From assembly GCA_019155205.2 (NCBI GenBank), contig JAHNZQ020000079.1, forward strand, positions 1,177,710-1,241,709: 64,000 bases of DNA. Reading direction: 5' to 3'. Every line of letters begins with the position of its first letter. The stretch's first letter is position 1. Shown piece after piece: positions 3,662 through 52,789 of the stretch. The stretch comes from Gracilaria vermiculophylla. Taxonomy: Eukaryota; Rhodophyta; Florideophyceae; Gracilariales; Gracilariaceae. The notes beneath the pieces were generated by a model. The model saw only the letters and a list, made by a program, of their open reading frames with translations. It had not been told where the DNA came from and ran no database searches. The position numbers and the translations under genes were made by a program.

Positions 3662-3999
3662 TTAATGGCGTAGACCAGGTCTGCTGCCACATCTTCTAGC
3701 GCTTTGGTGTCGCAGACGGTGTCGATGCGCTGGGTCAGCCGAGGTAGGCTGATTCCATAACTGCTGACGGCCTCCATCTGACAGCGGTGTGTTCGGAGGC
3801 GATGCCGGGAGATTTGCTAGGTCAACCCGGTACGGCGGGGGATAGTGATGTCGGACAGGAGCAGATGGTGGTCGGAGTGCTGGGTTTCCATAGCAGTATG
3901 CCTCCGTCCATGAGAGCACAAACCCTCGCCCACAACGCAAGAATCAAAAAGCGAAAAGAAGAAAAGGTCAGAAGAGCAAAAGCCCTGTCGCTTATTCAA
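3662..3999 (-). pseudogene. Remnant of LINE endonuclease C-terminus
   Basis: On the minus strand the peptide METQHSDHHLLLSDI (about 3849-3893) carries the SDH signature that ends apurinic/apyrimidinic-type endonuclease domains of LINEs. The flanking coding sequence continues toward the RT in other frames, so this part is frameshifted. The rest of the endonuclease is missing because the element is truncated at about 3895. Confidence 0.6.
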
Positions 4000-5829
4000 A
4001 AAGGTGTTAGTGCCTTAAAAGCCTCTACAAAGACAGGGGTTTCCAGAACCACGACTACGCGCATTAAGAAATTCTTTGACACCTCCAACAAGGTCGAGCT
4101 CGAAAAGCTGCTTGACCCTGTGCTTCACCATGCCGGGCGGAAGACAGTCTTTTCGCCACACGAAGAAGAACTCGTCGTCAAGCGCGCTTTACACGCCGCG
4201 GCGCATGGTTTCGCAGTGGATAGCACTGTCATGAACACTGTACATGCAAAGATAGCAGCCGATAAATGTAACGGATACGCTAACGGTGTGGCCTCCCCTG
4301 ACGCCATTCGATCATTTCGAGCTCGAAACCGGGCCTTGGCGTACAGGGTAGCTGAAAATGTGACCGAGGCACAACTAGCAGCGCAAAACAAGACACATAT
4401 TGAAAGTTTGAAGTACGCGCTGCAGGAGGTAGAGCAACAACATCCAGGTATACTTGCCGATGCCCGTCAAATTTGGAATTGGTATGAAACCGCCGTATCC
4501 GGAGAATATGGAAGGAAAGTCAGATGCTATGCTTTGGCGTCTACGCACAGTGGTGGTGCTAGGAGCAGTATCAGAGACGCTGGGAAACATGTGACAGCCG
4601 GAATCGCTATTTCGGCTGCGGGCAACGTTGCCCCTCTTTTTTTTGTAGCTTCTGGAAAACGAATCGTTAAGACTTGGCGAGACCCTTTACAGAAGCAGGA
4701 CTTCACTAATGCACTCGGAATACCTCACTGGCTTTGCGAAGATAGCTGGTTGCCGCCGGAAACTGCAATCCATGTGACAAAGTCTGGCTCCGTAGACCGC
4801 AGTGTAATTGTGAAAATCGCCGAACATGTAAATGCGCATGCCAGAAAAACCATCCCTTCCGATAAGCACATTTTGCTCTTGGTAGACGGACACAGCTCTA
4901 GAGAAGGCTTGGAGTCGATTGACACATGTCAGCGATTGAAAATTATCGTCGTGCGTCTTCCCGCGAATACAACCCACATTGTACAGCCTTGCGATCAGCT
5001 AGTAAACGGAACGTTTCAGCGCACAGTTCGAAAAACTAGAGATGAGTTGTTGGCCATGGCGCACCTCTCGTGGGCTAATACGTCTTACAAAATCAAGTTA
5101 GCAGTAGCTGGCCATCAAGCGATCACACCAAGCGATGCCAGGATGTCTTTTGTGAAGTACGGGATGTGGCCAATGGACTTCAGATTCGTTCGCTTCGCTA
5201 TTTCTTCAAGACAGATCGATAACCCCTGAACCGAGCACGTAGATGCAGGTCAGACCTTAGCCCAATCTGAAGCTTTGTTGGGCAAGGTCACGGCGGCCAG
5301 GAGTCATAATATTGCGCTGCAGTCTGAAATACATCGCCTTACGGACGGAAGGCACCCTGCCTCTTGAGCTCTTTCCAAGGTTTCTGCTCTTATCCAGACC
5401 AAATATAGGGTCAACACGATTCTCCAGCAGGAGATGCGGGCTCCAAAAAGTGCTAATTGTAGTCGTAAGGCTCGTAAAAACGGCGGAGGCATGCAAAAAT
5501 CCAAGATACTGACCTCGAGGGGACCTGAAACGTCGCTTTGGGATGCACAGTTGTCAAAGTCTAAGATGGAGGATGCCCGGATACTCGGCGTCCAAATCCG
5601 AGAGCTATGTGACAGGAGTGGATTCGATAAGGAGAATGTTGAACCGGTAGGTCTTGAAAACGTAACCCGTTATGTAGAGTCCACAGTTGACTACTACTTT
5701 GACGATATTCCTATTGGTCTAAGGCGCAGGCGATTTGCGTCAGGTGCGTCGGAGAAAGGAATGTTCTGCCGCACAGAATTGCATCATGATGCTGCACGGT
5801 CTTTGCTGGGATTGTCACAGCTTCGATAG
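3898..5829 (+). pseudogene. pogo/Tigger-like (DDE_1) transposase, catalytic Asp lost
   Basis: The longest open stretch ends at 5229. I place the start at ATG 3898 (or 3910), because the 37 codons upstream in the open frame are antisense LINE sequence. An N-terminal helix-turn-helix (about 3940-4080, ALSLIQKGVSALKASTKTGV) is followed by a DDE_1 catalytic domain. Visible blocks are HVTAGIAISAAG, LLLVDGHSS with Asp at 4885-4887, and NTTHIVQPCDQL with Asp at 4993-4995. The first acidic position, normally Asp before Glu-Thr, reads NWYET with TAT at 4483-4485. The same frame continues past TGA 5227-5229 and TGA 5365-5367 to 5829 through a Ser/Lys-rich tail. Terminal repeats were not found. Two TGA stops and the missing Asp indicate an inactive copy. 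Confidence 0.8.
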
Positions 5830-5984: not shown

Positions 5985-6351
5985 CAGTGCGTTTCAAAAT
6001 CACATTACACGTGAGGAAAGAAGTGTGCCAAAACTGTACTGTGGGATAGTATTCGCAAATCGTCTATGTAGAATTGGTCCAAAAAGATATGTACATCGTC
6101 TCTTTCCAGTAAAAACGGCTCGAGGCCCTTCATTTTCCAAACAAAAACAGCTTCTATTCATCAAATTGAATGTCAAGCATAAATGTACCAGTGCTATCGC
6201 CAAAACAGTTGAGCGCTTTAAGGTCACAATTGCTACTTTTTTCAAAAACATTACTCTTTACGCAGACCAGTGAGCTGCCGTACAGCCTAAGAAGCTCAGA
6301 TCAGCAAACAAATTACTAATAAGTATACATGAATTATGTAAAAGATGCATA
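5985..6351 (+). mobile_element. Tc1-like element, 5' fragment
   Basis: The fragment starts with CAGTGCGTTTCAAAATCACATT after TA (5983-5984), a diverged version of the copy A terminal repeat. The N-terminal transposase reading (ARGPSFSKQKQLLFIK and on) is recognisable on the plus strand near 6118-6280. The next Tc1 copy (6352-7631) inserted at a TA at its right end. I could not find the rest of this element after 7633. Confidence 0.75.
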
Positions 6352-7631
6352 CAGTGCGTTTCAAAAACATATTACCCCTCAAAAGTGCGCCAAAACTGTA
6401 CTGTACGCTAGATTTTGCACATAGTCTATGTAGAATCGTTTCAAAAAGATATCTACACCGGCTTCTTTCTAATAAAAATAGCTCGAGATCCGCCACTTTC
6501 CAAGCAAGAACAACTTCAAATCGTTAAGTTTAACGCCGAGAAACATTCCAACAGTGCTAATGCTAAAACATTGAAGTGTTTTAGGGTCCCAATAGCTGCT
6601 GTTCTCCAAAATGCGACTCTTTATGGATTAAAACGATCTCCTGGAGGCCCTAAGAAGCTCAGCTCAGCAGATAAAAGAGTAATTAAAAGAGTGTTATGCA
6701 AAGGAAAAGTATTGTGCAAAACAAAATTGGTATAAATCTTAATCTCAACGTTTTTTAATCAATTATATGAAAGCAGAAAAACAGCACAATTTTTTTTAAA
6801 TATAAAACAATGAAGAAAACTTTCTTTCTCCAGGACCATCACAAGCAAAAGAGAATTGACAGGTGTGCCGGAAAAGCCTACTGGAAAAAGGAATAAGAAA
6901 TTTTTATTTTTACTGATGAAAAAAAGATCAATTTGGACGGACCAGATTGCTACAAGTATTATTGGCACGAATTTCGTAAGAAACGTCATGAACTTTATAC
7001 CAGGCGCTCTGGTGGAGGCTCTGTAATGGTCTGGGCGGGCATTTCTAAAAAAGGTCTAACGGAAATTTCCTTCATTGAAACGAACCTAAATGCAGAAAAA
7101 TATCAGGAAGTTCTATATAGCTATTTGTTACCTTTTGGTCTATGTTTCCATGAAGAAATTTTCATTTTCAATAGGATAATGCGCCTGTATACACTGCATC
7201 TTTAATCAAAAATTGGCTACAGGAGTCTAAGGTATCTGTTTTAGAGTTGCCAGCGCGCTCACCAGATTAGAAACCAATCGAAAACGTTTGGAGACTGCCG
7301 GCAAGGATGGTTTATGCGCATGGAAGGCAATTTCAGACAGTTTTTGAACTCAAAAACTGTATTAAAAATTGCTAGAAATCTACAACAGTTTCAACTGTGG
7401 AAAAGTAGATCAATTCGATGCCGAAACGCTGCATCAGCGTTATATTGCAAAAAAGATGCGAAATAAACTATTGATCGTCGCGCAGTAAAGAATTCATATT
7501 GATGACCATATGTTTTTGAAACAGTTTTTTTACTCTACTTTTTTCTGAAACCTATTTTTGTAGGCGTACAGTATACATTTGTTCGTTTTTTTGAGATTTC
7601 ACAGCATGTCGTATGTTTTTGAAACAGTCAG
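6352..7631 (+). mobile_element. Tc1 element, full length, dead transposase
   Basis: This 1280-bp element is bounded by TA at 6350-6351 and 7632-7633. It opens with CAGTGCGTTTCAAAAACATA and closes with an imperfect inverted version of it. The transposase (about 6476-7405) is decayed. Its initiator ATG is ATA, there is a stop in the core near 6893, and a frameshift affects the second-Asp region near 7165. The first catalytic block (FTDEKK), GGGSVMVWAGIS (7010-7045) and PIENVW (near 7275) are still readable. The copy at 38628 is its closest relative here. Confidence 0.88.
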
Positions 7632-7852
7632 TAAGACGCACAAAACTTTTTTAAAACACGTAGGCAAAACGATCATATTGTGAGACTAAGCAGCATATTT
7701 CAATTATAAACTATCCTGTAAAATATGTTGCGCTCCTTCAAAGTGCGAAAAGTTTCCATAGTAATCGATCACAGTCATTAAATCTGAAAATTATGTTTAC
7801 CGAATCCAAGGTTTTCATAAAATAGTGGATTCGTATACTGCCATTTACATTT

Positions 7853-8401
7853 TGTAGTACAGTGTATCGTAAGGTGATACATGGTGTGGCTTCACGACGA
7901 AATATTCCTAAGGAGAGCTCGCATTTTATAAAATGAGCCACGTGGTGCATAACTCGGCCCATGTGCGCTACAGTACCCTGAAGAACGGTAGATTTTTGAT
8001 GTATTTTAATTACTTTGTGCAAGTAGTTACTACAGTAGTGAGACCTGCCGAGGCGGGCTCCCAGCGTAATGCTTATTCTGTCGGTCCAGCTCCACGTCTG
8101 GGGAAGTAAACCAAGCACCCTTGAGTCTACGTCTATTTTTCCAGTTGGAGACTCTTGTCGAACATCCTAAGGTTTCTAAGCCGCCGATCCCCAGGTCGCC
8201 TCGTAGCAACGCCTGTAGGAGCATTGTTCGCCCAGTGAACCTCTCTCTCGGCTGGTGTTTGCGGACCTCCTTCCAAATTTTCCCGGCTCGTGACAGCCAC
8301 TATCGAAGACCACCTTTAGGAACCCGTGCCTTTAGAGTCAACAAAAACTCCTAACGGATGCTGTGCGCTTTTACCTCGACAGAAGAACTGACCGTACCAC
8401 A
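7853..8401 (+). mobile_element. Solo LTR of the Gypsy-1 family
   Basis: It begins TGTAGTACAGTG and ends CCGTACCACA, as the Gypsy-1 LTRs do, and aligns along its length with those at 12524-13645 and 22975-23527 (for example GAGACCTGCCGAGGCGGGCT near 8040). No internal element sequence follows. Flanking pentamers do not match, so the target-site duplication has decayed or been lost. Confidence 0.88.
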
Positions 8402-8897
8402 CTTTACACTGTAAAAGAAGTGCTATTTCCAACGACCTTTCAAAGAATAAGATTATTTAAATGAACGTAACGATCTTTTCCCTCTTCTTATTCACAGCTT
8501 CATATTATGTTATTCACGATGAAGTCTGTAAAAGCTCTCACAAAGGCTCTTACGTAAATTGAAAAGAGAAAGGTAATTGATATAAATAGCGACGCATGTT
8601 CTGCATCTCAAATGGAGAGAATGTTGCAGCGTTGTCGATTCGTTATTCGTAACTTTTTACAACGGCCCCATTTTTCTCACAAACAACGATTGAACGCCAA
8701 ACTAAAACCATTTCTTCAACGATTTAAAGAGCAGTCGTTCAAGCTGCTACACTTCAGAATAAATCAGCTGAATAAATTAAAAAAGAAACATAAACTTTCG
8801 GTTACAGTTCAAAAACTATAAATATTTTAGAAAAGACTTCATATTTAAGTGCGGGGAACTGAAAACTGGTATGGTGATGAATTCAAAACACAAATAC
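8402..8897. other. AT-rich spacer between two opposed solo LTRs
   Basis: Nothing recognisable was found. A 69-codon Lys-rich open frame at 8612-8821 has no motif that I know, and chance is a sufficient explanation for it. Confidence 0.5.
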
Positions 8898-9451
8898 TGT
8901 GGTACTGTCAGCCCTCCTCTCGAGGTAGGAAAGCACAACGTCCGTTAGGAGTTTTTGTTGACTCCAAAGGTGCGTGTTCCTAAAGGTGGTCTCCGGTATC
9001 CGCTGTCGCGAGCCGGGGGAATTCTTAAAAGGGATCCGCAAACACCGAGCGGAGGGGGAGGTTCACTGGGCGGACAATGCTCCTACAGGCGCTGCTATGA
9101 TACGACCTGGGGATCGGCGGCTTAGAATCGTGAGTTGATCGACGAGAGACTCCACCCAGAAAAGTAGATGAAGACTCAAGGGAGCTTGTCTTTACTTCCC
9201 CAAAGGTGTAGCTCAACCGGCACATTAAGTATCAAGCCGGAAGCCCGCCTCGGCAGGTCTCGCTACTGTACTAATTACCTGCATGAATTAACTAAAATAA
9301 ATAATAATTCTACCGTCCCCAAAGGATACTGTAGCGAACGCGGGCGGAATTATGCACTACGTGGCCCATCTAATAAAATACGAACCCTCCTAAGGAATAT
9401 CATACCATAAGTCCTCACCACCATTTTTTCCTTAGGAGCCACTGTACTACA
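8898..9451 (-). mobile_element. Solo LTR of the Gypsy-1 family, reversed
   Basis: Read on the minus strand it starts TGTAGTACAGTGGCTCC at 9451 and ends CTGACAGTACCACA at 8898, matching the Gypsy-1 LTR throughout. It fixed the LTR termini for the family. Flanking bases (AATAC left, AGTGG right) do not form a duplication. Confidence 0.9.
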
Positions 9452-11429: not shown

Positions 11430-11701
11430 AATTGAGCTATAATATAGAATATGTTATATTTTGGAAACGCAGGTTTGAGGATCGTAACGTAGAGAGGTCG
11501 CTACAGTACGCAGAAACCAGCACTTTGGCGCGCTTGGTTATCGTGAACGCAGCGGTATTTGCGTCCGAGGTCCACTGGCCTCTCCAGATAAAACTTGTTC
11601 CGAGTTCCATATGTTTTCCATTATCGTACCATTCAGGGTTTCGATAATTTCCAGCGATGAGATTGTGAGAGCTCTGCGCACATTGCGATCCACAGGGTTT
11701 C

Positions 11702-12523
11702 ATGAGCGGCCCCAGAAAGGTGGTGAAGCCTATCTTGGTCTTCTGCAATCGATTTCAAAAGGCGCTACATCCCTTTTATTACGGTGACTCTTTCGATGGT
11801 ACCGTTGAACTTAGGGTTTGTCTAGGGTCCCCGCAAACGAGAACCCTTCACCGATTGGTTCCGATGCTGAGCCACGTGGCTCTGTGCAACAGGATTTGTC
11901 GCGCTATGACTAAGATTTTCTGCTTTGACAATCTGTTCCTTACCGATTGGTTCTTGGATCGAGAGCGCCTGGCTGTAGAAACGGGTGACGGGGAATGGCT
12001 CAGGTACCAACGGCAAAACTTGCGAACCATGCATACATACAACACTTTCGAGGTTCTGTCTAAAGAGAGACACATTCTTCTATCATTTTATGTCCTGTTT
12101 TTCGGGCGGTGGAGCCCCAATGAAATATTCCAGTACCTGGTTTTATTCCCTCCCTCGGTCCAGGGGTAGTTCTGCAGCTATACGTGCCGAGGCCATCCGC
12201 TTGCAGTTACAATTTGACCGGTTTCTATTCCGGGGAATGTCGCTATGGTCCTACCGTTGTTTCTGCATGTTGCCGGGGAGGGCTTTAAAGGGCTTACTAT
12301 GTGCCCAAACGAAATTTTCTGGCTAGCGGTTTATCTCCAGTTTGTCGTTTATTTTGTTTCCCAAACTACTTGGCTGCACTCACTCATGTGGTACAATGTA
12401 TCGTTCCAGGTCACGAACGCACTGTATACTGACGTTGAGAGCTAGCAGATGAGCTATATGTGCTACACGCTTTTATGGCACAAGGCCTGCAGTTCCCTAT
12501 TTGAACTATCAACACGTCCTCTC
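11702..12523 (+). pseudogene. Antisense accessory ORF of B1, first part
   Basis: The function is unknown. The frame 11702-12169 and its continuation in shifted frames match the antisense frame of Gypsy-1. YNTFEVL at 12038-12058 corresponds to YHTFEVL at 21535-21555. FLDRER (near 11954) corresponds to the WLDRNR segment. PGRALKGLL at 12273-12299 corresponds to PGRLLSLL at 21349-21372. TTWLHS followed by WYNVSFQV (12359-12410) corresponds to TTWSES followed by DYNLQVAW. Order and spacing agree. The coding strand is opposite to B1 pol. It is cut at 12523 by the insertion of Gypsy-1 and resumes at 23528. Frameshifts show it is no longer functional. Confidence 0.6.
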
Positions 12524-13645
12524 TGTAGTACAGTGTATTGGAGGTCAGAGGGGCAAGGTAAAGTTGGAGGGATATTAAGAATGTTCGCCAGCTCTGGCTT
12601 GGATTTACTTTGAAGTGCCTCGACCATGACTTATACAGTGGTTCAGTCGCACCGACTGGGTTGCATCAGAAATTACACTACAAAGGCGAGACACTCAATA
12701 CTACCAATCATATTGTAACATGACATAAATGTACTAGCCACAATTCAATAATGCTTACAACAGCAAGGCACAACAAGGCATGACAGTTCCGTACACTCAC
12801 GAGACCATGACAATGCACAAACTCACCCAACCACCTTATACTCTCTGTATTCCGCCACCACTCGTGTCCATACAGCAATGTGTGTGTATAGTTACCGTGA
12901 CGAGGCACATTACACTAAACCATATCCGGTGTACACTTAGCTGAGTTTGCATTGTGTACACCTGGAAACGATATGGTAGTGAACAACGTGCCGAACAGCA
13001 CACCTGCACACGTGTACTAGACAGAGTCAACATTCAACGCAGCCCATGGTCCCCGGGACATTTAGTTGTCAGTGAAAGCACAGGCACTTCATCCAACACA
13101 GTGGCTCCTAAGGAAATAGGGAGGTTTGACCTTATGGTCTAATATTCCTAAGGAGGGCTCGTATTTTTTTAGCTGGGCCACGTGGTGCATAATTTCGCCC
13201 ACGTTCGCTACAGTATCCTTTAGGGACAGTAGAGTTATTATTTATTTTAGTTAATTTATGCAGGTAATTAGTACAGTAGCGAGACCTGCCGAGGCGGGCT
13301 CCCGGCTTGATACTTAATGTGCCGGTTGAGCTGCACCTCTGGGGAAGTAAAGACAAGCACCCTTGAGCCTTCAACTACTTTTCCGGTTGGAGTCTCCCGT
13401 CGATCAACTCACGATTCTAAGCCGCCGATCTCCAGGTCGTATCATAGCAGCGCCTGTAGGAGCATTGTTCGCCCAGTGAACCACCCCACCCTGCTTGGTG
13501 TTTGCGGATCCCCTTTAAGAATTGCCTCGGCTCGTGAGAACGAATACCGGAGACGACCTTTAGGAACACGCACCTTTGGAGTCAACATAAACTCCTAACG
13601 GACGTTGTGCTTTACTACCTCGAGAGGAGGGCTGACAGTACCACA
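12524..13645 (+). repeat. 5' LTR of Gypsy-1, interrupted
   Basis: The LTR consists of 12524-12535 plus 13104-13645, 554 bp in total, against 553 bp for the 3' LTR. It is split by a 563-bp foreign solo LTR and one copy of its CAGTG target duplication. Without recognising that insertion the left end would be misplaced by about 570 bp. Confidence 0.9.
12536..13098 (-). mobile_element. Solo LTR of another retroelement family inside the Gypsy-1 5' LTR
   Basis: The insert starts TATTGG and ends CCAACA on the plus strand. It is flanked by CAGTG at 12531-12535 and 13099-13103. On the minus strand it therefore opens TGTTGG and closes CCAATA, an LTR with one terminal substitution. A minus-strand TATAAGG box (about 12834-12840) fits an LTR promoter. 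No internal sequence of this family was recognised in the window. Confidence 0.75.
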
Positions 13646-13647
13646 AC

Positions 13648-13658
13648 TGGTCTCCCGG
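13648..13658 (+). other. Candidate primer-binding site of Gypsy-1
   Basis: TGGTCTCCCGG lies two bases inside the 5' LTR, where the 3' end of a primer tRNA (ending CCA) would anneal. I could not assign the tRNA. Confidence 0.45.
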
Positions 13659-13800
13659 CCTAGAAGGTCACAGTTCCTAAAGGATTCGCACAAGTCGCAG
13701 CAGAACCGTGTTTCTAGTATGCAACGAGCAACCCCAACAGTGGAATTCTTCCTTAAGGTGATTCCGAAGTGGAAGCAAATCGCCCCCGACCTACTCCTCT

Positions 13801-16017
13801 ATGGACCCCTCAGAACCCCCAATGGAAACCCCCTTACAGGATCCTCAAGAAACCGACTCCGTTGGTGGGCGCAGCACGCGCAGCGCTCCCCAGGAGAGGG
13901 TTGCCACATTGGAGGACCCTGAAAGTCTCCTTCGAAATCCTGGCTCCTCTGTGGAGCATTTCAGGAATCGCCTTAGGATAATGCATGATCGGAGGCAAGC
14001 GGAATCCCCCGCGACACCTCTGGAGAACGCCGACGTGGAGGTTGGAGAACCGCACACGGCATCGGAGCCACCACCTCAGGAGCTGCAGGGACGGGAACAC
14101 CCGGAGTCTAGCTTTCTCCTGGAGTCACTGGCCCCGCGCCTTACGGATTGGCTCTCCCAAGAGCTGGTCGAAAGAATACCTGCAGGTGTTGAAGCCCACT
14201 TTGGAGCGCGCCGCCAAGCCCTTGTGGAGGAAATCGAAACTGAGAGCGCTCATCGTGCTGTGGATGCTTTGCTGGATTCCTATCCTTTCCTCGAGGTGAT
14301 CTCAGGTGTTATCCGAGCGGAGGTTCGCTCCCAAACCGCGCAGCTGCTCTCCGCAGCGGCGTTTCAAAGTTATTCTTCCGTACAGGAGAGGTTCCCTCTA
14401 TCAACACCTAAGGTGACCCCAGGCAGAAAAGGACAAGATACTGCTGTAAGGAAACGGGACCACCTGAGTAATCTTGCTATACACCGTCTGGACCTGACGC
14501 CCCGAGGAAGAGGACAGGATACCGCTCGCGAAGAAGTTCACCTAAGGAGAAAAGGACAGGATACTATTCAGGTGGATCGCGATAACGGGGGTATCGTCAG
14601 TAACCCAGACCACCTTAAGGAAAGACGCCGAAAGAAATGGAGGGAGAACAGAAGAAAACGAGAAACCGATTCGGAGAGAAGCTCAGACTCCGAATCCGTG
14701 AACAGCTCCAGCTCGGAGGACAGTATACCTCCTAAGGAGAGGAGCAGAAGGGTCAGGAAGGTCGTCCCGCTTAACGACCTCTTCGCCAAAGTGGTGGATT
14801 ATGACACGTACAGGTTGAATAATCGCTCCACACTCTACGACGCGTCGGTCACTAAACGACTCACGAAGATGCAGCGCCGTATGGATATTCAAATGAAGAA
14901 GCACTCCTTCTCAAGCGAAGACCCAATTTCGGTGTTGAATTTTCTTACGCGCTTCCGTTCAGCGAGTAATACCAATGGTGTCCATGAAGGTGCCGCCATA
15001 TGGTGCTTTCAGTTCTACCTTACAGGCCAAGCACACTCGCTGGTGCAGCCACGACTCACGCGGGAGAGCACCATTGTGGATGATCCTGAAACGGAGATCT
15101 TGACGACGTACCCGGAGGTAGTCAATTTCCTCCTTAAAAGGTACGCCACGGACGAGGTGATAGCCGATGCCGACGCTGAAGTCACCTCCTATAAGCTGAA
15201 CACCGGAATGACTCAGACGGAATTCTCACAGAAGCTGTGGACGAAGATCCTACGGTGTGGGAATGTGTACTCCGAACGGCTGTTGAAGTCACTGTTTGTC
15301 GAGGGACTCCTTCCCTCGATACGCGCGAGGGTGCGTAATCACTTTAAAACGCATCCAAAGACCACCAATACGGAGCTAGCGCTTTTCGCGGAATCCTATG
15401 GGGATACCCACCGTGTCGCCCGTCGCAGCCATACTCCACTTTCGGAAAAACTGGCGGACTCAAGGAACCGTCGGGCATCCGCCCTGACGTTGGACTCCAG
15501 CACCTCGGAGGAGGTCGACGAGCTCACGCTCGTAGGAGAGCCAGAGGCCTTTGCCCTCACATACGCCTCCTCTCAGGGAGCACCGTCTAGGGCGAGGACA
15601 GTCTCGTCTCCCACTTCATACGCCTCGGCAGAATCGTACAGAAGCGTCCGACTTGCGAACCCTCGAGGCTATCCACCGCCTTGCAGGATTTGCTTGTCAC
15701 GAGAGCCCGTACACTGTATGACTTTCACCCCGGCAATGAGGGCCGCAATCCTGCAGAAAAGAGAGAAAAACTTCCAGGACCTGATGGACATACCAACAGA
15801 TAGCGGGAGTTATCGAACCGCGTATCGCGACATCCGCTCCGCTCAAATAAACAACGGTTCCCGTACTCCACCGGGAGTGCAGCCTGTCCCACTGTCACTG
15901 GCACCCACAACGCAGGTGCCGGTGTCCCAGCCGGTTGCACCTCAAGGGAACACGTTGCATCGCGATGCACAATTGCAGAAGCCCTCCCCGCTTGGAACCC
16001 AGCCCCTCTCCAACTAG
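13801..16017 (+). CDS. gag: Gypsy-1 gag
   Basis: This is the structural polyprotein of the retrotransposon, which would form the particle that packages its RNA. All 738 codons are open from ATG 13801 to TAG 16015, in contrast to the stop-ridden pol. After an acidic, Pro-rich N-terminus come three short repeats built on KGQDT or RGQDT (residues about 208, 237 and 250). A basic Arg/Lys patch and a Ser/Glu/Asp tract follow (about 275-315), and then the Retrotrans_gag core (about 347-545), with blocks such as FLLKRYATDEVIADADAEV. A degenerate zinc knuckle, CRICLSREPVHC, begins at residue 628 and lacks regular CX2CX4HX4C spacing. The gag of B2 and the knuckle of B1 are recognisable relatives. Whether it is expressed is unknown. 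Confidence 0.85.
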   Translation: MDPSEPPMETPLQDPQETDSVGGRSTRSAPQERVATLEDPESLLRNPGSSVEHFRNRLRIMHDRRQAESPATPLENADVEVGEPHTASEPPPQELQGREHPESSFLLESLAPRLTDWLSQELVERIPAGVEAHFGARRQALVEEIETESAHRAVDALLDSYPFLEVISGVIRAEVRSQTAQLLSAAAFQSYSSVQERFPLSTPKVTPGRKGQDTAVRKRDHLSNLAIHRLDLTPRGRGQDTAREEVHLRRKGQDTIQVDRDNGGIVSNPDHLKERRRKKWRENRRKRETDSERSSDSESVNSSSSEDSIPPKERSRRVRKVVPLNDLFAKVVDYDTYRLNNRSTLYDASVTKRLTKMQRRMDIQMKKHSFSSEDPISVLNFLTRFRSASNTNGVHEGAAIWCFQFYLTGQAHSLVQPRLTRESTIVDDPETEILTTYPEVVNFLLKRYATDEVIADADAEVTSYKLNTGMTQTEFSQKLWTKILRCGNVYSERLLKSLFVEGLLPSIRARVRNHFKTHPKTTNTELALFAESYGDTHRVARRSHTPLSEKLADSRNRRASALTLDSSTSEEVDELTLVGEPEAFALTYASSQGAPSRARTVSSPTSYASAESYRSVRLANPRGYPPPCRICLSREPVHCMTFTPAMRAAILQKREKNFQDLMDIPTDSGSYRTAYRDIRSAQINNGSRTPPGVQPVPLSLAPTTQVPVSQPVAPQGNTLHRDAQLQKPSPLGTQPLSN

Positions 16018-16028
16018 AAAAACCCTGA

Positions 16029-19000
16029 GAGCCACGCGTAGAGGCTCCGCGTGGCTGTATAACATCGAGCCTCAGCTCCACGGAGTTCGCATTTGGGAAA
16101 GGGGGAGAGGCCGTCTGCTCCGTCGACGCAGAATCGGCGGGCCCCCCAACCCCGTTTGACCCATTCGACACCTTTGCGGATTCTGTTTGCACGCTCCAAC
16201 GTCAGAATTACAAGGTCTTCGCCTCTATCGGATGTTCCCCGCTCGCCTCCACCACGGTGCGCGCTATCCTCGATACCGGAGCTGGCCCCAATCTGGTGCA
16301 CGCTGACGTGCTCCCACGGTCTGCTATCGGCTCCTTGAGGACTGGCAAGCTCCCTACGGTGCGCGATGCGTTGCGACGAGCCTTGACCATCCTCGGCGCT
16401 ATCCCCTTGTACCTCCGGTTGGGCTCCTTACAGGTGAAAGTGTGGTTCCTCGTGCCGACTAACTTGGTCGCACAACGCATATTGGGCACTTTTTTTGTGG
16501 ATCGCTATGTACGTGCAATCTACCCACGCCTGCGGAAGGTGACGTATCACGACGCCGCCCCTGTAGGTATCGTGCCCGCATCTCCAGGACCGGACGCCAA
16601 CGCGCGTCATGTGGAAACCCTTCCAAAGAAGACGCAGTCGAATAAGCTCCGAGTGGTGAAGAGCACCGAAATACCCGCGAGGAGTCAGGCTGAAGTCTGG
16701 GTGCAGACCTCTGCATCTGGCCTTTCATTCCTACAGGGGAGTCAACACCTGAAGATGAAGCAGCAATCCATGATGGCGAACGATGTTATGGAAATAGTAC
16801 CGAACATTCCCTTCAAGGAGTCGCCGCAACGGCTCCAGAGAGGAATTGCCGTCGGACTGGCACTACCGGCCCCTGCAGGACTGGCTCAACTTCCTCGATC
16901 GGAAGACTTTGTAGACCGCGATGCAATCGCCACCACGGAGGTGGGAGCCACTTCCTCGGCTCCGACGGAAGAGAATCCCGCCACCTGGCAGGAGAAGCTC
17001 CAAATTGGCGAGGATTTTGAAGGGAATCGCCATATGATAGTGGAGATACTGTCCGCATTTAGGGACACGTAGTCTGGTCGCCTGGGTCAGCTCAGCCTGG
17101 CCAAGCACAGGATCCAGCTCACACCGGATGCGAAACCGGTATATCAACTCCCGAGGAGCGCTGGACCCCATGCGCGCGATTTCGAACGCGATGAGGTCTA
17201 GCGGATGCTGGAAAAGGGCGTTATCGAGCCTTCCAATTCCGAATGGGCCTTCCCGATGGTGTTTGCCAAGAAGAAAGATGGCTCTTCAAGGTTCTGTATT
17301 GACTACAGGCGCCTCAACGAGGTGACGGTACGCGATTCGTACCCGATACCCCGTATGGATGAATGTATCGACTCTTTAAGCGATGCGTCCGTTCTCTCCA
17401 CGCTGGATGCCAGTGGCGGCTACTGGCAGATTAAGATGGACGACTCCGATAAGGATAAGACAACGTTCACCTCGCACTGTGGGATCTTCAGATTCCGAAG
17501 GATGCCATTTGGTTTGAAGAATGCACCCACTACGTTCCAACGAGCGGTGGAAATTATCCTGTCAAACGTGAAATGGCAGTAAGCCTTGGTGTATATCGAT
17601 GATGTCAGCATATACTCCCGCAGCGTGGAGGAGCACTTCATTCATATGAAGCCCGTGCTCCAACTCCTAAAGGATGCTGGACTCACCTTGAAGCTGGAGA
17701 AATGTTTCTTGTTCAAGTCGTCGGTGGACTACCTGGGACACGTTGTGCTCCCGGGCCGCCTACAGGTTTCCAGGAAAACTCAGGACGCCATCAAGGAAGC
17801 TCACCCTCCTACAAACCAGACGAAGCTCCGCTCCTTCTTAGGCTTTTGTAACGTCTTCCGGAGCTTTGTACCTAATTTCTTCCGTATAGCGGAGCCATTA
17901 AATCGCCTCTTGGAGAAAGACAAGCCGGCGCAATTGGCTATCTTGACGGATGGGGAGTTTGAAGCTTTCGACACCTTGAAGAGGAGACTAATAGAGCCAC
18001 CAATATTGGTACTTCCGAAGCGGCACGTCCAAATGGTGCTGGACACTGACGTCTGTATATACAAGGTCAGATGTGCCCTCCTAGAGAAGCAACCGGAAGG
18101 TGGACTTCAACCCATCGGGTATTGGAGTCGCAGCCTCACCGCCATGAAACGGAATTATTCCACCTCGGAGCGCGAATGTCTCGCCATCGTGTGGGCGGTT
18201 TTGATTGTACGCCCATACCGGGAAAGCGCGTGTTTCACCTTGAGGACGGACCACGCACCACTGCAGTGGATACTGTCCTTGACGGATGCTTCCGGTCGCC
18301 TGGAAAGGTGGAGGTTACGCTTCCTGAAGTTTGACTTTGACATCCCTCACCGCCCGGGCATTAAACACCAGGCAGCGGACGCGCTCTCGGGAATCTCCAC
18401 CGATAGGGAAGATGAGACACCTTTGGAGGACACCATCCTGTGTCTGGTTATCCAGGACGCCGACGGGAAAGAAAGATCCGATGGAGAATGTTTGGAGTGC
18501 TGTGAACCTGGAGGAAAGTATAGTGGACTCCCTGAGGTGATGGCTCTTATTGAGGAGGAGAAAGAAGTTCTCCCCATCACTGTGGCGGAGCTTCTGATGG
18601 AAGAGAGTACGGATGCGTACTGCAAGGAGTGCCTCGCCACTGTGGGGAGTTTGACATCGTCCTTCGACGTAGACCGAGACTGTGTGCTTGTACGCCGCAC
18701 CCCGCTGGATGGAGCTCTCCAAAAGGTTGTGCCAACGAAGCTATGGGCGAGAGTTTGGTATCTCTCGCACTATTTTCGCCTCGCCGGGCACCCCGGTGGA
18801 TCTCTGATGTATTTCACCATGCGGAGGGAGATCTATTGGCAAAAAATGGCTAATGACGCGTTCCAAACGGCGACGGATTGCTATTCCTGTGCCGCTTCAA
18901 GGGGGAGTATACGGAAACACCGAACGCCGCTCAGGCTGTTTCCACCTTGAGGACCGTTAGAGTTTGTGGCCATGAACATCTTGGGTCCTCTCCCCAAGAC

Positions 19001-20159
19001 AAAGCGAGGGCACCGATTTATCCTCGTGATCAGCGATCGTTTTTCCAAGATCACGCGCGCCATTCCCCTCCGAAGCACTACTGCAGCAGTGATTGCCGAC
19101 GCCTTTTTGGAGCATTGGGTTTACCCCTACGGGATACCGTTGTACCTTTTTACTAACAATAGCCCCCAGTTTGCGGCGAAACTCTTCAGTGCCGTCTCCG
19201 GAATGCTGGGGATGAAACAGTTGTTTTCAACTGCCTATCACCCCCAGACAAACAAACAGGAGGAAAGGTTCAACAAAACCATCGCCTCGAGGCTGAATCA
19301 CTACGTCGCGGACCACCAGAAGGATTGGGAGGCATATGTGGGACCCCTCACGTATGCATACAACCTACAGGTGCACCGCTCCACGGGGACCGCTCCTTTC
19401 AATTTGGTGCTCTCGCGCATCCCACCAAGTGCCGTCATCGCGGCACGCGCCACGGCGCACCCGGCGGATGGGCCATAAGCGCCAAAAGCCGCGCAAGCCA
19501 AACGCTCCATCCTAAGGCGGTATGAGAACGCACTCTCCCTCGCAAAGGAGAGACTCAACGCCTCGCAGATGAGATACAAACAGGACTTCGACCGATAGGT
19601 TATGGAAGGCCCTCATCGGAAGAAAGGCGACGAGGTTTTCATCGACAAACCCGGGAAAACCTCCGATGAACCGCCGGACGTCACGCGCAAGCTAGCGCCG
19701 ACCACCTCAGGACCCTACAAAGTCCTTACAACCTATAAGGATACTGTCCCCATTGAGGTGAACGGGCTCAGGGATGTCATCTCCGGTGATAGGGTGACGA
19801 AAGTCCCAACGCCCAGCCTATCAGGAATACCCGTCACCCCACCTCAGGGACAACGCGCGGAGATTCCTCATCCGACCACCTCAGGCGCGACGACACCACG
19901 GGATACTGGGAACCGAATCACCGTTCTCGGTGAACCATTACTAGAGGCTCCCGAGGCCATACTGACCGCTTAAGGTGACATCCTCTACGCGATGGACCAT
20001 ATCGTCTTCCATCGACAAACCCCTGCAGGAATACTGTACCACGTCCGCCGATATAGGTACAACTCGAAGGACGACACGTAAGAACCTCCGGAACATATCC
20101 CGGAGAACTTCCTTAGGCGATACCACGCCAATCTGGTGCGGAAACGCCTCTCCACATAG
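16029..20159 (+). pseudogene. pol: Gypsy-1 pol (PR-RT-RH-IN-chromodomain), eight premature stops
   Basis: One frame runs from 16029 to 20159 without a frameshift, but has stops at 17070 (TAG), 17202 (TAG), 17580 (TAA), 18948 (TGA), 19476 (TAA), 19599 (TAG), 19971 (TAA) and 20079 (TAA). It lies in a different frame from gag, 12 bases after the gag stop. The protease has ILDTGAGPNLV (near 16266). RT has FCIDYRRLNE, LDASGGYWQIKMD and YIDD at 17592-17603. RNase H follows (RTDHAPLQW near 18246), then an integrase zinc finger (H...H...C...C, about 18760-18895) and the integrase core. At the two core Asp positions the codons are Asn (AAC 18975, AAC 19155), while the Glu in QEERFNKT is kept. The C-terminal piece about 19977-20159 reads as a chromodomain (YHVRRYRYNSKDDT, then EPPEHIPENF). 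Confidence 0.9.
19977..20159 (+). other. Chromodomain segment at the end of Gypsy-1 pol
   Basis: The aromatic and Trp-Glu-Pro pattern of a chromodomain is visible: YHVRRYRYNSKDDT, then a TAA at 20079 where the family has Trp, then EPPEHIPENFLRRYH. Chromodomains of chromoviruses steer integration to marked chromatin. This places Gypsy-1 among chromoviruses. Comparable C-terminal segments occur in B2 (59010-59140) and G (50850-51030). Confidence 0.7.
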
Positions 20160-20667
20160 GCGCTTCCGTTTAGGAAAGGGGGAGGGGGCCCCCAAACGGA
20201 GATGTTTTTCGTCTTCGCCGTCTATTCCCCACCTGGAGTTATCTTTTTTGCCTGCTCCCACGGCGGCACTTCGTGTCGTTAAGCTCGCAGGCACGGCCCA
20301 AGTCATATTGGACCTACCGTCATGGAGCTTTTGCTACTCCCGAAGGATCTTTTATTTGGCAGGTTCCTATCACCTACAGGTCACTGAAGCGAGTAGAATA
20401 CTCCGCTTTGAGGCGCGTTTTTGCCGTGAGCGTTTGGCTATCGAAAAACTCCGACAGGGTTTTCTTGAAGGTCGCCATCGAGGCTCGGTCTGTCCGGGCC
20501 TTGTGGAGCTCTAGGACTTAAGCACGCGCCTTGCGCAGAGCCTCTACAGGAGAAGCCGGTGCAGGACGGTCTGCCACCAGGCATGTCTGCACCAACTCTT
20601 GAAAGGCAACCTCCAGAGCCTCAGAGGAGACTCCTCCCGACGGTGCACCCGGTGCGGCCACCTCCGT
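20160..20667. other. Spacer between Gypsy-1 pol end and antisense ORF end
   Basis: It contains no convincing frame on either strand. It is where transcripts of the two converging coding frames would meet. Confidence 0.5.
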
Positions 20668-22923
20668 TCACGGCGCAAGAGCCCCCACGTAAGGAGCCGC
20701 GGACGGCGGACCAGCTGGGACAGGGGCTCCAGGACAGGATTCCGCGGGTTTCGCAGTAGAGGTTGGCAATGCCAAGTACGCAGTCGGTGACACCGGAGGT
20801 GATGATGGCGTGGGAACTGGAACACTCCGCAGGCGAGGTTGAGGAATAGGCGCAAGGACGCTCCGCATTCGGGGATGCACCACTGGGGCCGAAAGTTCCG
20901 GGACGGAAGCAATCTCGTCCTCTTCCATAGGAGACACTGCGGCTACCACTGCGGGAGTACTCGACACTGCGATGGGCCGCGGAGTTATAACCTCAGGAGG
21001 TGCGCTCATATCCTGGGACGGAGCCGGTAGCCTACAAGGCGCATCATGCACTAGGCTCTCCATCAAGGGGTCGTAGTCGGGCACTGGGAGGCGTGGCACT
21101 TGAGAAACCCGAGAAGGCGCTAGACGGGGAAAGGCAGGGTATGCTCGCCGGTCATCGTCTCCATTCGGACTCCTCACTATGGGGTGGAACGTGTCCTCGC
21201 CGTAGTCGTACTAGAGGAAATTTGGCGTGTCATTCCACGCCACCTGGAGGTTATAATCCAACAGCGTCTCCGCCTCGGACTCACTCCATGTGGTGCGCTT
21301 CACCAGGTTTTGGATGCCAAAGGAGCACAGGACCCGTATGATGGACACCAACAAGGAGAGTAAACGCCCGGGGGCCGGCTGATATGACGAGTCCCAGTAG
21401 AGGCGGCCGTCGCTGCATCTGGTATAGGAGGTTACATCTTCGTCCGCTGCTTGGAGATACGCCATTAGGGTGCCGACCGCGAACTCCGTCGAGGCGACCA
21501 GCATGACAAACCGCCCTAAGGAGTCATGGGGATCCAGGACCTCGAAGGTATGATACGCGAAGGTGATGGGCTTCGCCACGCAGAGATGCGGGGAAACCCA
21601 GTGGTCCCTCCAGGAGTCGTTCACCTTCAGGTAGTACTTCGGACGTTTTCCGGAAGGCATATCATGGAATTCCGTGATATGCCACCCATAGAAGTATTAG
21701 AAGGCGGTGCGTACTCTAGTTTCGTCCGCAAGGTGCGTCCCCCATCGATTCCGATCGAGCCAGTAGAGGCGATCGTATGTGGAATTGACGGGCATCACCG
21801 TTAGGGCAGAGCGCCCGTCGGCAATGCTTCCGGTTCGCCCCGCTCTCTGATGCGCGCTCTCCTTGTGGAGCAGTACCTGGAGTCGCGCCTGAATCTCTCG
21901 TCCCTCAGCGCACTTCAGGTATGGAGTATCGCAGTGTCCCACCGTGGTTGGAGGGTTGTCACCATGTACCGAAGTATGAAGCCAGTGGGCGCGATATGCA
22001 TCCACGCGGTTCCGCTTCTGGCCGTTCCACGCAATCTCCGGTACGGCACGGAATCGCATCGCCTGAAGGTACGGGCCGAAGCGGTGAATGTAATCCTCCA
22101 CGGGACATGGGAGACTCACACGCCTATCGTGGAACGGGACAAACACCCGCGTGGCGCGATGATCGAAATGTTCTCATGGACGGAACGGTGCACCGGTTGA
22201 GGTGTGATACACTACATATTTGAAGGAAATGTAGGCGCCGGAGTCGGAGAGGGCATGCCGAAGGTATACGAAGCCGGGTGAATGGCAACCAAACGCGTGG
22301 TAGCATCTGAGGAGCGAGATCGGACACCACTTGGGGAACGATTCGTAGTTATATGCACTACGGAGGAGGGAGCCACGTCAAGCCGCCATCGTGGAATTCG
22401 AGGAGAAGCCGGGCGACCGGAATAAGGCGTGTCATGGAGGCCCATCGCGAAGCGCGCGTTTCTATCCAACGGAGAACGACGGAGGTGCGGACGAGAGAAT
22501 TATGAGTCGGCACCTTCACGGAGATTGAATGAGTGGACGCGAGGAAGCGGGTGTAGCCAAAAGAAGTAGCCTCGAAGGAGTCGGAGTGGCGAGCGCCTCC
22601 GGGGGGTCGGTATCCCCTTAGGACTGACCCACGCTCCGTCCACGAAAGTTGCACGCGTGCACCACGCACGGTACGCCGTAAGACGCGGACACTCGCGTTG
22701 CCAACTGGCGCAGCAGCACGAATGGGTGACACGAAAAAGGAGCAGACGCAGCCGGGTTAAGGAGGAGCAGGGCCCACAAACGCCCCGACGGATGAAACGC
22801 AAGCCCGGGGCAATACGCCGCGCAGGAGTATGGAGAAAGGAAGGAACGCCTGAAGGAGAGAACTTGCAAACCGCCGAAGGCAGCACTTGCCTCAACACCG
22901 ATAGGAGCCACCCCGGGAATCAA
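20668..22923 (-). pseudogene. Antisense accessory ORF of Gypsy-1, unknown protein
   Basis: This minus-strand frame occupies the 2.8 kb between the pol end and the 3' LTR. It is consistent from 22923 to 20668, with premature stops at 22618, 22516, 22432, 22378, 22174, 21697 and 21211. Open runs of 158, 161 and 180 codons make up its second half. The sequence between the stops looks like ordinary globular protein: SGAYISFKYVVYHTSTG near 22225, YDRLYWLDRNRW near 21750, YHTFEVL at 21535, DGRLYWDSSYQPAPGRLL near 21370. A Pro-rich end follows, with an acidic EEDEIASVPEL at 20893-20925. Matching motifs occur at the corresponding place in B1 and B2. No catalytic motif or known family was recognised. 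The start is uncertain, and frames 1 and 2 are also partly open around 22212-22732. Confidence 0.6.
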
Positions 22924-22961
22924 GAAATCGGAAGATGCACCTCGAGGACATGGTGCAATTT

Positions 22962-22972
22962 AGGAAAGGAGG
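22962..22972 (+). other. Polypurine tract of Gypsy-1
   Basis: AGGAAAGGAGG, followed by TA and then the 3' LTR at 22975, is the expected primer site for plus-strand DNA synthesis. Confidence 0.8.
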
Positions 22973-22974
22973 TA

Positions 22975-23527
22975 TGTAGTACAGTGGCTTCTAAGGAAAT
23001 AGGGTGGTTTGACCTTATGGCATAATATTTCTAAGGAGGGCTCTTATTTTATTAGCTGGGCCAGGTGGCGCATAATCCCGCCCACGTGCGCTACAGTATC
23101 CTTTGGGGACGTTAGAATTATTATTTATTTTAGTTAATTTATGCAGGTAATTAGTACAGTAGCGAGACCTGCCGAGGCGGGCTCCCGGCTTGATACTTAA
23201 TCTTCCGGTTGAGCTGCACCTCTGGGGAAGTAAAGACAAGCACCCTTGAGTCTTTATCTACTTTTCCGGTTGGAGTCTCTCGTCGATCAACTCACGATTC
23301 TAAGCCGCCGATCCCCAGGTCGTATCATAGCTGCGCCTGAAGGAGCATTGTCCGCCCAGTGAATCTCCCCCTCCGCTCGGTATTTTCGGATCCCCTTTAA
23401 TAATTCTCCCGGCTCGCGACAGCGGATACCGGAGACCACCTTTAGGAACACGCACCTTTGGAGTCAACAAAAGCTCCTACCGGACGTTGTGCTTTACTAC
23501 CTCGAGAGGAGGGCTGACAGTACCACA
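22975..23527 (+). repeat. 3' LTR of Gypsy-1
   Basis: It begins TGTAGTACAGTGGC and ends CTGACAGTACCACA, 553 bp. The perfect CTCTC target duplication follows at 23528-23532. Confidence 0.93.
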
Positions 23528-24960
23528 CTCTCGCCCTATACTTCCATATCGAACGATACAAAGAGCATACTGTGGCGAATTCATTGTACTGCTACACATA
23601 TGTACAATTCTTGGAATCAGTTCACTTTTCGGAGTCACACTAAGGGCCTTAGCACTTAGCTGGGCCTATGAACTGTCGGAAAAAAGATAAGATACTTGCG
23701 CCATACTCTCTTGTGACACAGGGCGTAAACTTCATCTGCTGAATTATAGCCTTCCGCAGAACTCGAGGCCAAAATGGGACGAGGGGCCTTCGTACGAGTT
23801 GTAACCGAGGCAGTACTAGGCGGTGTGGAAGCATAGTAACCATTCCGTTGCTTCACAAATAGACCATCAGGTTTGATAATATTTTGTTAAAGGCCACGAT
23901 GATGACGCCTTCGTTGTGGAGGTCCCGATGGTGCATATATCATCGACAAACCACGAGTCCTCTGTGGTACCGCCTTCGTTTTCTGCGACTTTGACGCCAC
24001 CCAAGAGCGGGCCCCCACCAAGAGATTCGGTTTTTCTTACCATTTGAGCTACTTCGGGAAGTCGTGGCCTCTTGATCGCATCTTGGGTCGCTGCACTGCT
24101 CCAGCATTGGCGACTGAAATGGTGAGCTAGTCTTCCGTCTTAAGAAGAATCTCGACCAACTGGCTATCAAAGATGCTCTGCGTCAAATTTCAACAATTTT
24201 TCTTCTGTTTTTGAACCGCTCTGAACATGTGGAGACAGGTTTTACGATTGAAGCATTAATTAGTGGTGTTCACCAACCGGTGCGTTGCGCTGGTATGAAC
24301 ACAGTCATCCGCGAAGCCTGGGACTCGTGTCAGCGACAAAAGCGCCACATCATTTTGGAACTTTCCTACGGTCTCCTGCGCCTGGAGAGTAGCACTCAGT
24401 CGATGGGTACGCACATTGCAAGGCATACAGTCCAATCATTCTAGATCCCGCGCCTTCGTTTGGCGATTCCACTACGACCAGTTTTATTTTTGGGTGGGCG
24501 ACGGTTTCATCTGGTGTTGCTCCTGCATGCCACCTTACAACGCCGATGATTGTTTGTACCCTCTACGAGCAAGCAGATACGTACGCTTTGCATAACTGCG
24601 TGGCTCCGGTACGACCCCTCCTTCCAAGCTCCAACTGATAGCATTCTAAAAGTTTCGGTATGGGTAAGCTACTCACTGGTGTGTCAGCGGCTTTTTGGCC
24701 GTGTGATTGCAATCCTTGACAGGGCTATTACCTTTGCTACCTACTTTTCATTTCAACGTCTTGCGCTTATACAAGTAAAGCTTCTTTGTCTTCTTCTTGT
24801 TTCTTTATTCCATTCTTTTTCGTTACCGTTCCAATCTTTCATCTCTTATAGGTCTTCAACTTCTTTATTTTTTCTGGTTTCTTTGGTTTGGCTCATAAGC
24901 AATATCCGCTCCCTCTTCCTTAACGTGTATGTTCTACAAAGACGCTAAATGCACAAACTG
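23528..24960 (+). pseudogene. Antisense accessory ORF of B1, second part
   Basis: This continues the frame cut at 12523. The clearest anchor is DDDAFVVEV at 23898-23924, which matches DDDDTSVVEV of B2 (60202-60231) at the nucleotide level as well. It is followed in both by a Ser/Pro-rich stretch and a PPKSG or PPKIG motif. Several frames are needed to follow it, so it is decayed. From about 24760 the plus strand becomes T-rich. Its complement is a Lys/Glu-rich tail of pol-strand sequence, comparable to 59210-59360 in B2. I cannot assign a function. Confidence 0.5.
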
Positions 24961-38627: not shown

Positions 38628-39903
38628 CAGTGCATTTCAAAAACATATTACCACTCAAAAGTGCGCCAAAACTGTACTGTAGACTAGATTTTGCACATAG
38701 TCTATGTAGAATCGTCTCAAAAAGATATGTACACCGCCTTCTTTCTAATAAAAATGGCTCGAGGTCCGCCACTTTCCAAGCAAGAACAGCTTCTAATCGT
38801 TACGTTAAACGCCGAGAAACATTCTAACAGTGCTATCGCTAAAAACTTGAAGCGTTCTAGGGTCACAACAGCTGCTTTTCTCCAAATTCCGACTCTTTAT
38901 GGATTAAAATGATCTTTTGGACGCCCTAAGAAGCTCAGCGCAGCAAATAAAAAAGGAAGTAAAAGAGAATTATGCAAAAGAAAAGTATCGTGCAAAAAAA
39001 TTGGAATAAATCTCAAACTCAACGTTTCTAAATCACATATATGGAGGCAGATAAACAGCACAAATTTGTTTAAATATAAACAAATGAAAAAAACTTTCTT
39101 TCTCCAAGACCATCACAAGCAAAAGAGGATTGACGGGTGTGCTGGAAAACCCTACTGGAAAAAGGAATGGAAACATTTTATTTTTACTGATGAAAAAAAG
39201 TTCACTTTGGACGGACCAGATTGCTACAAATATTATTAGCACGATCTTCGTAAGGAACGTTATGAATTTTATACCAGGCACTCTGGTGGAGGCTCTGTAA
39301 TGGTCTGGGGGGACATTTCTAAAAAAGTTCTAACGGAAATTGCCTTCATTGAAACGAACATGAATGCAGAAAAATATCAAAAAGTTCTATACAACTATTT
39401 GCTACTTTTTGGTTTATGTTTCCATGAAGAAATTTTCATTTTTCAACAGGATAATGCGCCTGTACACAATGCATCTTTAATCAAAAATTTGCTACAGGAG
39501 TCTGTGGTATCTGTTTTAGAGTTGCCAGCACGCTCACCAGATTTGAACCCAATCAAAAACATTTGGGGACTGCTGGCAAGGATGGTTTATGCGCATGGAA
39601 GGCAATTTCAGACAGTTTTTCAACTCAACTGTATTAAAAATTGCTGGAAGTCTATAACAGTTTCAACTGTGTAAACGTACATCAATTCGATGCCGAAACG
39701 CTGCATTAGCGTTATACTGCAAAACGGATGCAAAATAAACTATTGACCGTCGCGCAGTGAAAATTTGTTATTGATGATCATATGTTTTTGAAACGTTTTT
39801 TTGACTTCACTTTTTTCTGAAACCTATTTTTGTAGGCGTACAGTATACATTTGTTCGTTTTTTTGAGATTTCACAGCATGTCGTATGTTTTTGAAACAGT
39901 CGG
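38628..39903 (+). mobile_element. Tc1 element, full length, copy at 38.6 kb
   Basis: This 1276-bp element lies between TA 38626-38627 and TA 39904-39905, close in sequence to 6352-7631. The terminal repeat CAGTGCATTTCAAAAACATA and the closing TATGTTTTTGAAACAGTCGG are clear. Confidence 0.9.
38754..39674 (+). pseudogene. Tc1 transposase of the 38.6-kb copy
   Basis: The ATG at 38754 gives MARGPPLSKQEQLLIV. Frame breaks follow near 38910-39080 and there is a TAG at about 39238. The C-terminal 124 codons (39300-39674) are open and carry IFQQDNAPVHNA with the second Asp at 39450. Exactly 34 residues later, SPDLNPIKNIWG has Lys (AAA 39555-39557) where the family has the catalytic Glu. The first Asp block FTDEKKFTLDGPD is present near 39181. 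The Lys alone would abolish catalysis. Confidence 0.85.
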
Positions 39904-39930
39904 TATGTTCTGCAAAAGGCGCACTGCAGT

Positions 39931-45732: not shown

Positions 45733-45763
<31 letters not shown>

Positions 45764-52754: not shown

Positions 52755-52789
52755 TATCACGCGAGGCATGCACTAGGCGTTTGCGACAG

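Follow-up and report, generated by a model that had tools for sequence, protein, structure and literature searches.

Gypsy-1, a retroelement within the window (the whole stretch of 64,000 nucleotides analysed here), and its relatives very probably possess a third gene, which lies antisense between pol and the 3' LTR and whose protein was selected and would serve as an accessory protein of the element. The antisense frame is coding-like and far beyond chance. It would encode a protein of approximately 627 (possibly approximately 695) residues, and the gene appears to be older than the split of the three families, A, B and C, in which we recognised it.

Anatomy of Gypsy-1 and extent of its antisense frame

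Gypsy-1 (family A) is a chromodomain Ty3/gypsy element. Its LTRs form a direct repeat of 548 bp with 91.6% identity (5' LTR, 13098-13645; 3' LTR, 22981-23527; both forward strand), and direct reading of the letters revealed a polypurine stretch at approximately 22962-22972, just before the 3' LTR. Between the LTRs, the forward strand carries pol relics (RT, RNase H, integrase zinc-binding domain and integrase core; 17202-19478) distributed over three ORF pieces (17202-17582, 17583-18950 and 18951-19478). The RT, RNase H, integrase order of Ty3/gypsy chromoviruses was thus found, with RVT_1 (2.2e-17), RT_RNaseH (8.6e-26) and Integrase_H2C2 (8.8e-07) above their Pfam cut-offs and the integrase core (rve, 2e-05) under its curated cut-off. 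The end of pol (19599-20159, forward strand) contains stops in the window copy; it comprises a module that we take to be GPY/F, together with a chromodomain, and terminates at 20159 with ANLVRKRLST and a stop codon. The chromodomain of the window copy is broken yet recognisable, and in a sister copy (L009) the Chromo family (PF00385) was matched above the Pfam cut-off at 2.6e-07. The 751-residue ORF at 13762-16017 (forward strand) matched no Pfam family above cut-off, a single weak match having an E value of 0.2; judged by its position, it is presumably gag.

Several other features were observed in the window. Sequences akin to the Gypsy-1 LTR occur twice more, in opposite orientations, at 7853-8403 (forward strand) and 8898-9451 (reverse strand), with 79% and 92% identity, respectively. 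An open frame of 493 residues at 3748-5229 (forward strand) resembles a pogo-type DDE transposase. The mutually related repeats at 6021-7633, 38659-39905, 45261-47695 and 2-845, some of them inverted, are presumably Tc1/mariner-like. A masked run (read as X) occupies approximately 52564-52772, within another gypsy-type pol.

The antisense ORF of Gypsy-1 occupies 20374-22256 on the reverse strand, from a methionine codon at 22256 to a stop at 20376-20374, and comprises 627 codons in register. As in the plant Retand elements, it is antisense to gag-pol and lies between pol and the 3' LTR. The original prediction had placed the conserved frame at 20668-22923; its lower limit of 20668 sits just past an internal stop, and little or no codon selection was found above approximately 22463, so that the conserved frame instead runs from 22256 down to 20374. 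The window copy is decayed, with five in-frame stops and a frameshift near 22212-22221. Among the 41 aligned copies described below, the start ATG is present in 33 (39 have letters at this position) and the terminal TAG in 29, the codon being complete in 32. Of the 38 copies with letters 68 codons upstream, 35 retain a second in-frame ATG, which the window copy lacks. The possible N-terminal extension (22257-22496, reverse strand) is under weaker selection.

The protein has an N-terminal body of approximately 400 residues, followed by a proline-rich linker that includes an acidic patch; a charged segment of approximately 80 residues forms the C-terminal end. Proline reaches 34% in one 50-residue block of the linker, and the acidic patch (MEEDEI..., 20860-20930, reverse strand) lies inside this long proline-rich stretch. 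One hydrophobic stretch within the body attains 1.72 on a 19-residue hydropathy scale, as scored in one copy. Searches of Pfam, PHROGs, NCBIfam and the PDB, made with single sequences and with profiles, produced no credible match to the antisense protein. AlphaFold models of two stop-free pieces from the window, computed with no alignment supplied, had mean pLDDT values of 44 and 28 and were useless.

Selection on the antisense frame in genomic copies

A 161-residue piece of the antisense frame gave matches at the best 150 of 443 candidate places in the genome, all with E values of at most 3.7e-70 and identities of 68-100%. Forty places (ranks 2 to 41 of the genome match list) were aligned with the window copy to give a set of 41; the sample is therefore biased toward closer copies. 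The antisense region was aligned in all 41. The antisense frame contained 0.49 stops per 100 codons, as against 2.79, 2.82, 1.71, 2.97 and 1.87 in the other five frames. In the 31 copies with more than 590 of the 627 codons aligned, the median was two stops, and three copies were stop-free (frameshifts not counted). Presence in many copies with conservation at the protein level, a trait of antisense additional ORFs (aORF-3R) in general, was found here also.

The ratio of nonsynonymous (N) to synonymous (S) variants, corrected for opportunity, was determined separately for variants found in a single copy, in two or three copies, and in at least four copies. Counted from the methionine, variants shared by at least four copies numbered 111 N and 224 S, giving a ratio of 0.21; the ratio was 0.12 for transversions (26 N and 59 S) and 0.18 for non-CpG variants (77 N and 163 S). 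Singletons, by comparison, numbered 1023 N and 355 S (ratio 1.22; transversions 0.94; non-CpG 1.29), and variants in two or three copies gave an intermediate ratio of 0.74. Shared variants fell at the first, second and third codon positions of the antisense frame 65, 47 and 223 times, respectively. The ratio reached its minimum in the N-terminal body (0.14), with weaker constraint in the proline-rich C-terminal part (0.43); the stretch upstream of the methionine gave 0.54 on only 30 N and 24 S. Fisher tests returned p values of 7e-44 and 1e-17, which overstate the certainty because they are uncorrected for shared ancestry.

A scan of 4.6 kb in the same copies located the signal. At reference positions 1500-2700 the antisense frame had a ratio of 0.06-0.27, rising to 0.43-0.60 at 2700-3300; beyond 3600 the selected frame was the sense frame of pol (ratio 0.20-0.48, with 0.5-1.2 stops per 100 codons). 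In a control at the pol end the sense-frame ratio was 0.36, and in a control on the LTR side the totals were 0.87-0.99 in all six frames, single 300-base windows there being scattered and one falling to 0.23 on 17 variants. The signal of selection passes to the other strand at pol, and the LTR side shows none.

Since shared variants are mostly silent and private variants neutral, we conclude that selection acted on the protein as long as the family was moving and that decay followed: the antisense frame was under purifying selection during multiplication of the element and has undergone neutral decay since. This bears out two expectations of the original prediction, namely that selection had acted while the elements were active and that a conserved antisense frame would be recovered across genomic copies.

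Three observations on neighbouring frames are recorded here. At antisense coordinates 900-1200 (numbering of L012), upstream of the ORF, all three antisense frames are nearly stop-free across the copies, without codon selection; open frames alone are therefore weak proof in this region. At coordinates 1-300 in the same numbering (LTR), one sense frame shows a ratio of 0.38 (18 variants) and few stops (0.6 per 100 codons), probably by chance. An env-like sense gene in the region of the antisense ORF was considered and rejected, the sense frames carrying 1.7-3.0 stops per 100 codons.

Families B and C and relatives beyond this genome

Searches of the genome with pieces of the B1 and B2 elements returned at least 44 and 37 matches, respectively; in many cases two matches were the N- and C-terminal halves of one place. 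B is accordingly a separate family, older than A, whose antisense protein is of the same kind and is kept at approximately 23-55% identity across the B places. The B1 antisense ORF is a pseudogene on the forward strand. Its N-terminal part and core (model positions 1-317) lie at 11534-12481, with frameshifts among frames p2, p1 and p0, and scored an E value of 3.9e-107, partly by construction, as the B1 locus (L057) is in the B set. Its C-terminal part (model 312-411 and 427-483) lies at 23787-24300, with E values of 8e-26 and 8e-05. Gypsy-1 (13098-23527), together with some flanking sequence, interrupts this older ORF.

The B2 element retains pol relics at 56432-57774 on the forward strand, opposite to its antisense ORF. 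RT (56432-56869) matched RVT_1 at 2.4e-12; the RNase H-side piece (57319-57774) had no match in Pfam and finds genome places adjoining B and C antisense ORFs. The C-terminal part of the B2 antisense ORF (model 293-483) lies at 59824-60384 on the reverse strand, its locus (L049) being in the B set, and the matching N-terminal part is approximately 5.4 kb away, outside the window end and beyond an inserted element. An unbroken ORF of 1172 residues at 60470-63988 (forward strand), encoding RT and RNase H of another retroelement, apparently lies inside the B2 antisense ORF; its intactness suggests a recent insertion.

A profile built from 32 B segments and no A sequence, some rows of which run through frameshifts as in B1, found 37 of the 41 A copies at E values of at most 0.01, the lowest being 1.3e-10 when scaled to a nominal 1000 sequences; A proteins that had been shuffled or reversed reached 26 and 1.9 at best, respectively. 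The reverse test, an A profile against the B places, was weak (best E value 0.023), so that the direct evidence linking A and B is one-sided. Four further places retrieved with a B query at 23-28% identity constitute family C. Their E values lie between 1e-17 and 7e-05 against A and between 1e-32 and 2e-09 against B, reversed controls reaching 0.42 at best, and they thus bridge the two families. On these alignments, homology of the A, B and C antisense proteins is well supported, the A-B relationship being distant.

The arrangement relative to pol was assessed from pairs of places. With RT places taken as the best 150 of 954 candidates for a B2 RT query, and the best 150 places of the A antisense piece, 56 pairs lay within 7 kb. 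In 51 of these, RT lay on the C-terminal side and was encoded by the other strand, the distance being 3.8-4.0 kb in 41 of the 51. For families B and C (55 places, being 65 rows minus 10 second pieces), the same arrangement relative to the RNase H side (best 150 of 472 candidates) was found in 19 of 20 pairs; random placement gave a mean of 0.74 and a maximum of 5 in 1000 trials. Against the RT list, only two of five B/C pairs showed the expected arrangement. The majority of antisense places had no pol neighbour among the best-150 pol lists.

When 20 antisense rows were run as a profile against a collection of 5.8 billion, one protein, P0001, was found among the 7992 candidates scored. P0001 is 241 residues long and matched the antisense protein at an E value of 1.3e-36 with 47% identity over 154 residues, a match that includes WNDTPGFLWYDYGED and a DDDG stretch. 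It is a partial sequence from short contigs and suggests that the antisense protein exists elsewhere at real divergence. Single-sequence protein searches with the 161-residue piece (18 candidates) and with a 560-residue frame (7994 scored) found no relative, and in viral contigs two stretches fitted a pattern, neither being confirmed as a relative.

These results permit a reappraisal of the likeness on which the original prediction was founded. It had described a coding-like antisense frame between pol and the 3' LTR in three elements, Gypsy-1, B1 and B2. Such a frame is present in Gypsy-1, and related frames are present in B1 and B2; several details did not hold. A series of motifs was said to recur in the same order in Gypsy-1 and B1. 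The order of parts is indeed the same and the proteins are homologous, but each of the three cited pairings is out of register or out of frame. YHTFEVL (21555-21535) falls at approximately 212-217 of the B model, as against 169-175 for YNTFEVL (12038-12058), some 43 positions apart. PGRALKGLL (12273-12299), offered as the partner of PGRLLSLL, is read in frame p2, whereas the frames that match the model there are p1 and p0, of which p0 fits better by eye; the likely counterpart of PGRLLSLL in B1 is SPVCRLF (p0, near 12331-12354). The TTW of A (approximately 21300) lies at model positions 297-299 and corresponds in the profile alignment to ALY within VTNALYT of B1 (12410-12430), while the TTW of B1 (12365-12373) precedes position 285. 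EEDEIASVPEL (20925-20893), equated with the acidic DD(D)xxVVxV block of B, is approximately 100 residues past the aligned core, whereas the B block is only a few tens past it; NGDDD of A is a nearer candidate, an equivalence that is unproven, the alignment ending before both. The similarity of A and B themselves did survive proper alignment, by way of the 37 A copies and the family C bridge. The conclusion is thus better than the evidence first cited for it.

Alternative readings, proposed role and known antisense genes

The antisense frame might owe its openness to base composition, or mirror a sense gene on the other strand, and remain untranslated. The region is GC-rich, the stretch upstream of the ORF (900-1200, L012 numbering) is almost free of stops in three antisense frames with no selection, and the sense frame that has the same wobble column as the antisense frame gave a ratio of 0.33 over the ORF. 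In windows 2700 and 3000, within the C-terminal third, the two were near-equal (0.60/0.61 and 0.43/0.44), and in window 3300, mostly beyond the stop, the sense frame had the lower ratio. However, this sense frame carries six times more stops (2.97 as against 0.49 per 100 codons), and its ratio is clearly higher over the body (four windows, 1500-2700; 0.16-0.34 as against 0.06-0.27). The B places, moreover, keep the protein, and A, B and C are homologous in the antisense frame; an untranslated frame is already contradicted by the data and scarcely credible. A functional antisense RNA, giving rise to self-limiting dsRNA or siRNA in place of a protein, is very unlikely. The tracking of codon positions by shared variants is not expected from RNA function, although the available text of PMC7264820 proposes a possible simultaneous role for antisense retroelement transcripts, and such a role may exist here in addition to that of the protein.

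Two further readings accept a protein and assign it another origin or nature. A host gene captured by one ancestral element and carried along as a passenger, or an independent transposon inserted into that element, would accord with the lack of any match to known retroelement proteins and with an antisense placement that is unusual for element genes. A passenger, however, is not expected to be under selection through many transpositions or in three families; the geometry relative to pol is constant (51 of 56 pairs for A, 19 of 20 for B and C), and no host gene was recognised among the genome matches listed. We consider this origin unlikely. An envelope-like or other membrane protein, rather than a nuclear regulator, is distinctly improbable. 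An env gene would occupy the same interval, between pol and the 3' LTR, and the hydrophobic stretch noted above might be taken for a membrane segment, but env is not known to lie on the strand opposite pol, as the antisense ORF does; the stretch is a lone, borderline one within the conserved body, and no Pfam envelope or fusion family was matched.

We therefore return to an antisense accessory gene, whose promoter would lie within the 3' LTR or close to it. Its product may be a nuclear protein that regulates expression or silencing of the element itself, as has been proposed for plant antisense ORFs and by analogy with GENE23 of Grande; we regard this as the most likely single role, though at less than even odds, and particle assembly, nuclear import or action as an integration cofactor together take up the remaining probability. 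More broadly, and with slightly less than even confidence, we suggest a new protein family with no catalogued domain, forming an ancient, essential third gene of red-algal chromoviruses that is always antisense. The available portions of PMC7264820 and PMC11963269 argue for function of antisense ORFs from their presence in most copies and from overall conservation. Here, the 41 decaying copies provide an internal clock: on the antisense strand, no more than a few hundred bases from pol, inherited variants bear the mark of selection and private variants behave neutrally. This pattern is direct evidence that the antisense protein mattered for propagation.

For the interval between pol and the 3' LTR, the accessible text of PMC7264820 records antisense ORFs in maize Grande, rice RIRE2, Silene Retand, bean PvRetro13 and Botrytis Boty. 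The statement of the original prediction that plant elements carry antisense ORFs is borne out by that source and by PMC11963269; its further statement that no case with such a protein had been described is consistent with our protein and literature searches, the latter yielding no red-algal case in the available parts of the open-access literature on antisense ORFs, red algae and chromoviruses. An antisense ORF beside pol is hence already known in kind, and, as judged from sequence comparison, it is the protein family of Gypsy-1 that appears to be new. The aORF-3R of Retand and other Tat-type elements, counterparts of which are found in RIRE2 and as gene23 in Grande, resembles the present ORF in being a long antisense ORF in the pol-3' LTR interval of a Ty3/gypsy element, present in most copies and of unsettled function (PMC7264820 and PMC11963269, as available). 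GENE23 is reported there to be nuclear and transcribed from its own upstream promoter (PMC7264820), and 97% of Retand clusters carry Transposase_28 (PMC11963269). This domain (PF04195) was matched by none of the antisense proteins, and the best E value in the whole genome was 0.38, below the cut-off. Retand is, as far as the sources at hand describe it, a non-chromovirus, whereas Gypsy-1 has a chromodomain; with PF04195 absent and a chromodomain present, Gypsy-1 is therefore not a Retand member. The hosts differ also, plants for Retand and, by all appearances, a red alga here: the best solved relatives of two light-harvesting proteins of this assembly are chains of 7y5e, a Porphyridium complex, and of 9kc5.

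A second counterpart is brtn, the antisense extra gene of Boty-like gypsy elements of Botrytis (Zhao et al. 2011, as described in the available text of PMC8365987 and PMC7264820). Its host, a fungus, belongs to a different kingdom. The protein described here would add to these a family for which no relatives are known, from hosts distant from both fungi and flowering plants, and allows the repeated evolution of antisense regulators beside the 3' LTR to be tested. The HBZ-type genes of HTLV are retroviral and encode a bZIP protein much smaller than the antisense protein. Like the gene proposed here they are antisense, and their antisense promoter lies inside the HTLV 3' LTR (PMC7264820, available text). 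If our reading is correct, then, taken with the apparently unrelated genes of Retand and Boty, gypsy elements have repeatedly evolved an antisense accessory gene beside the 3' LTR, in parallel with some retroviruses, which would suggest a shared requirement, for example that sense transcription be controlled from the other strand.
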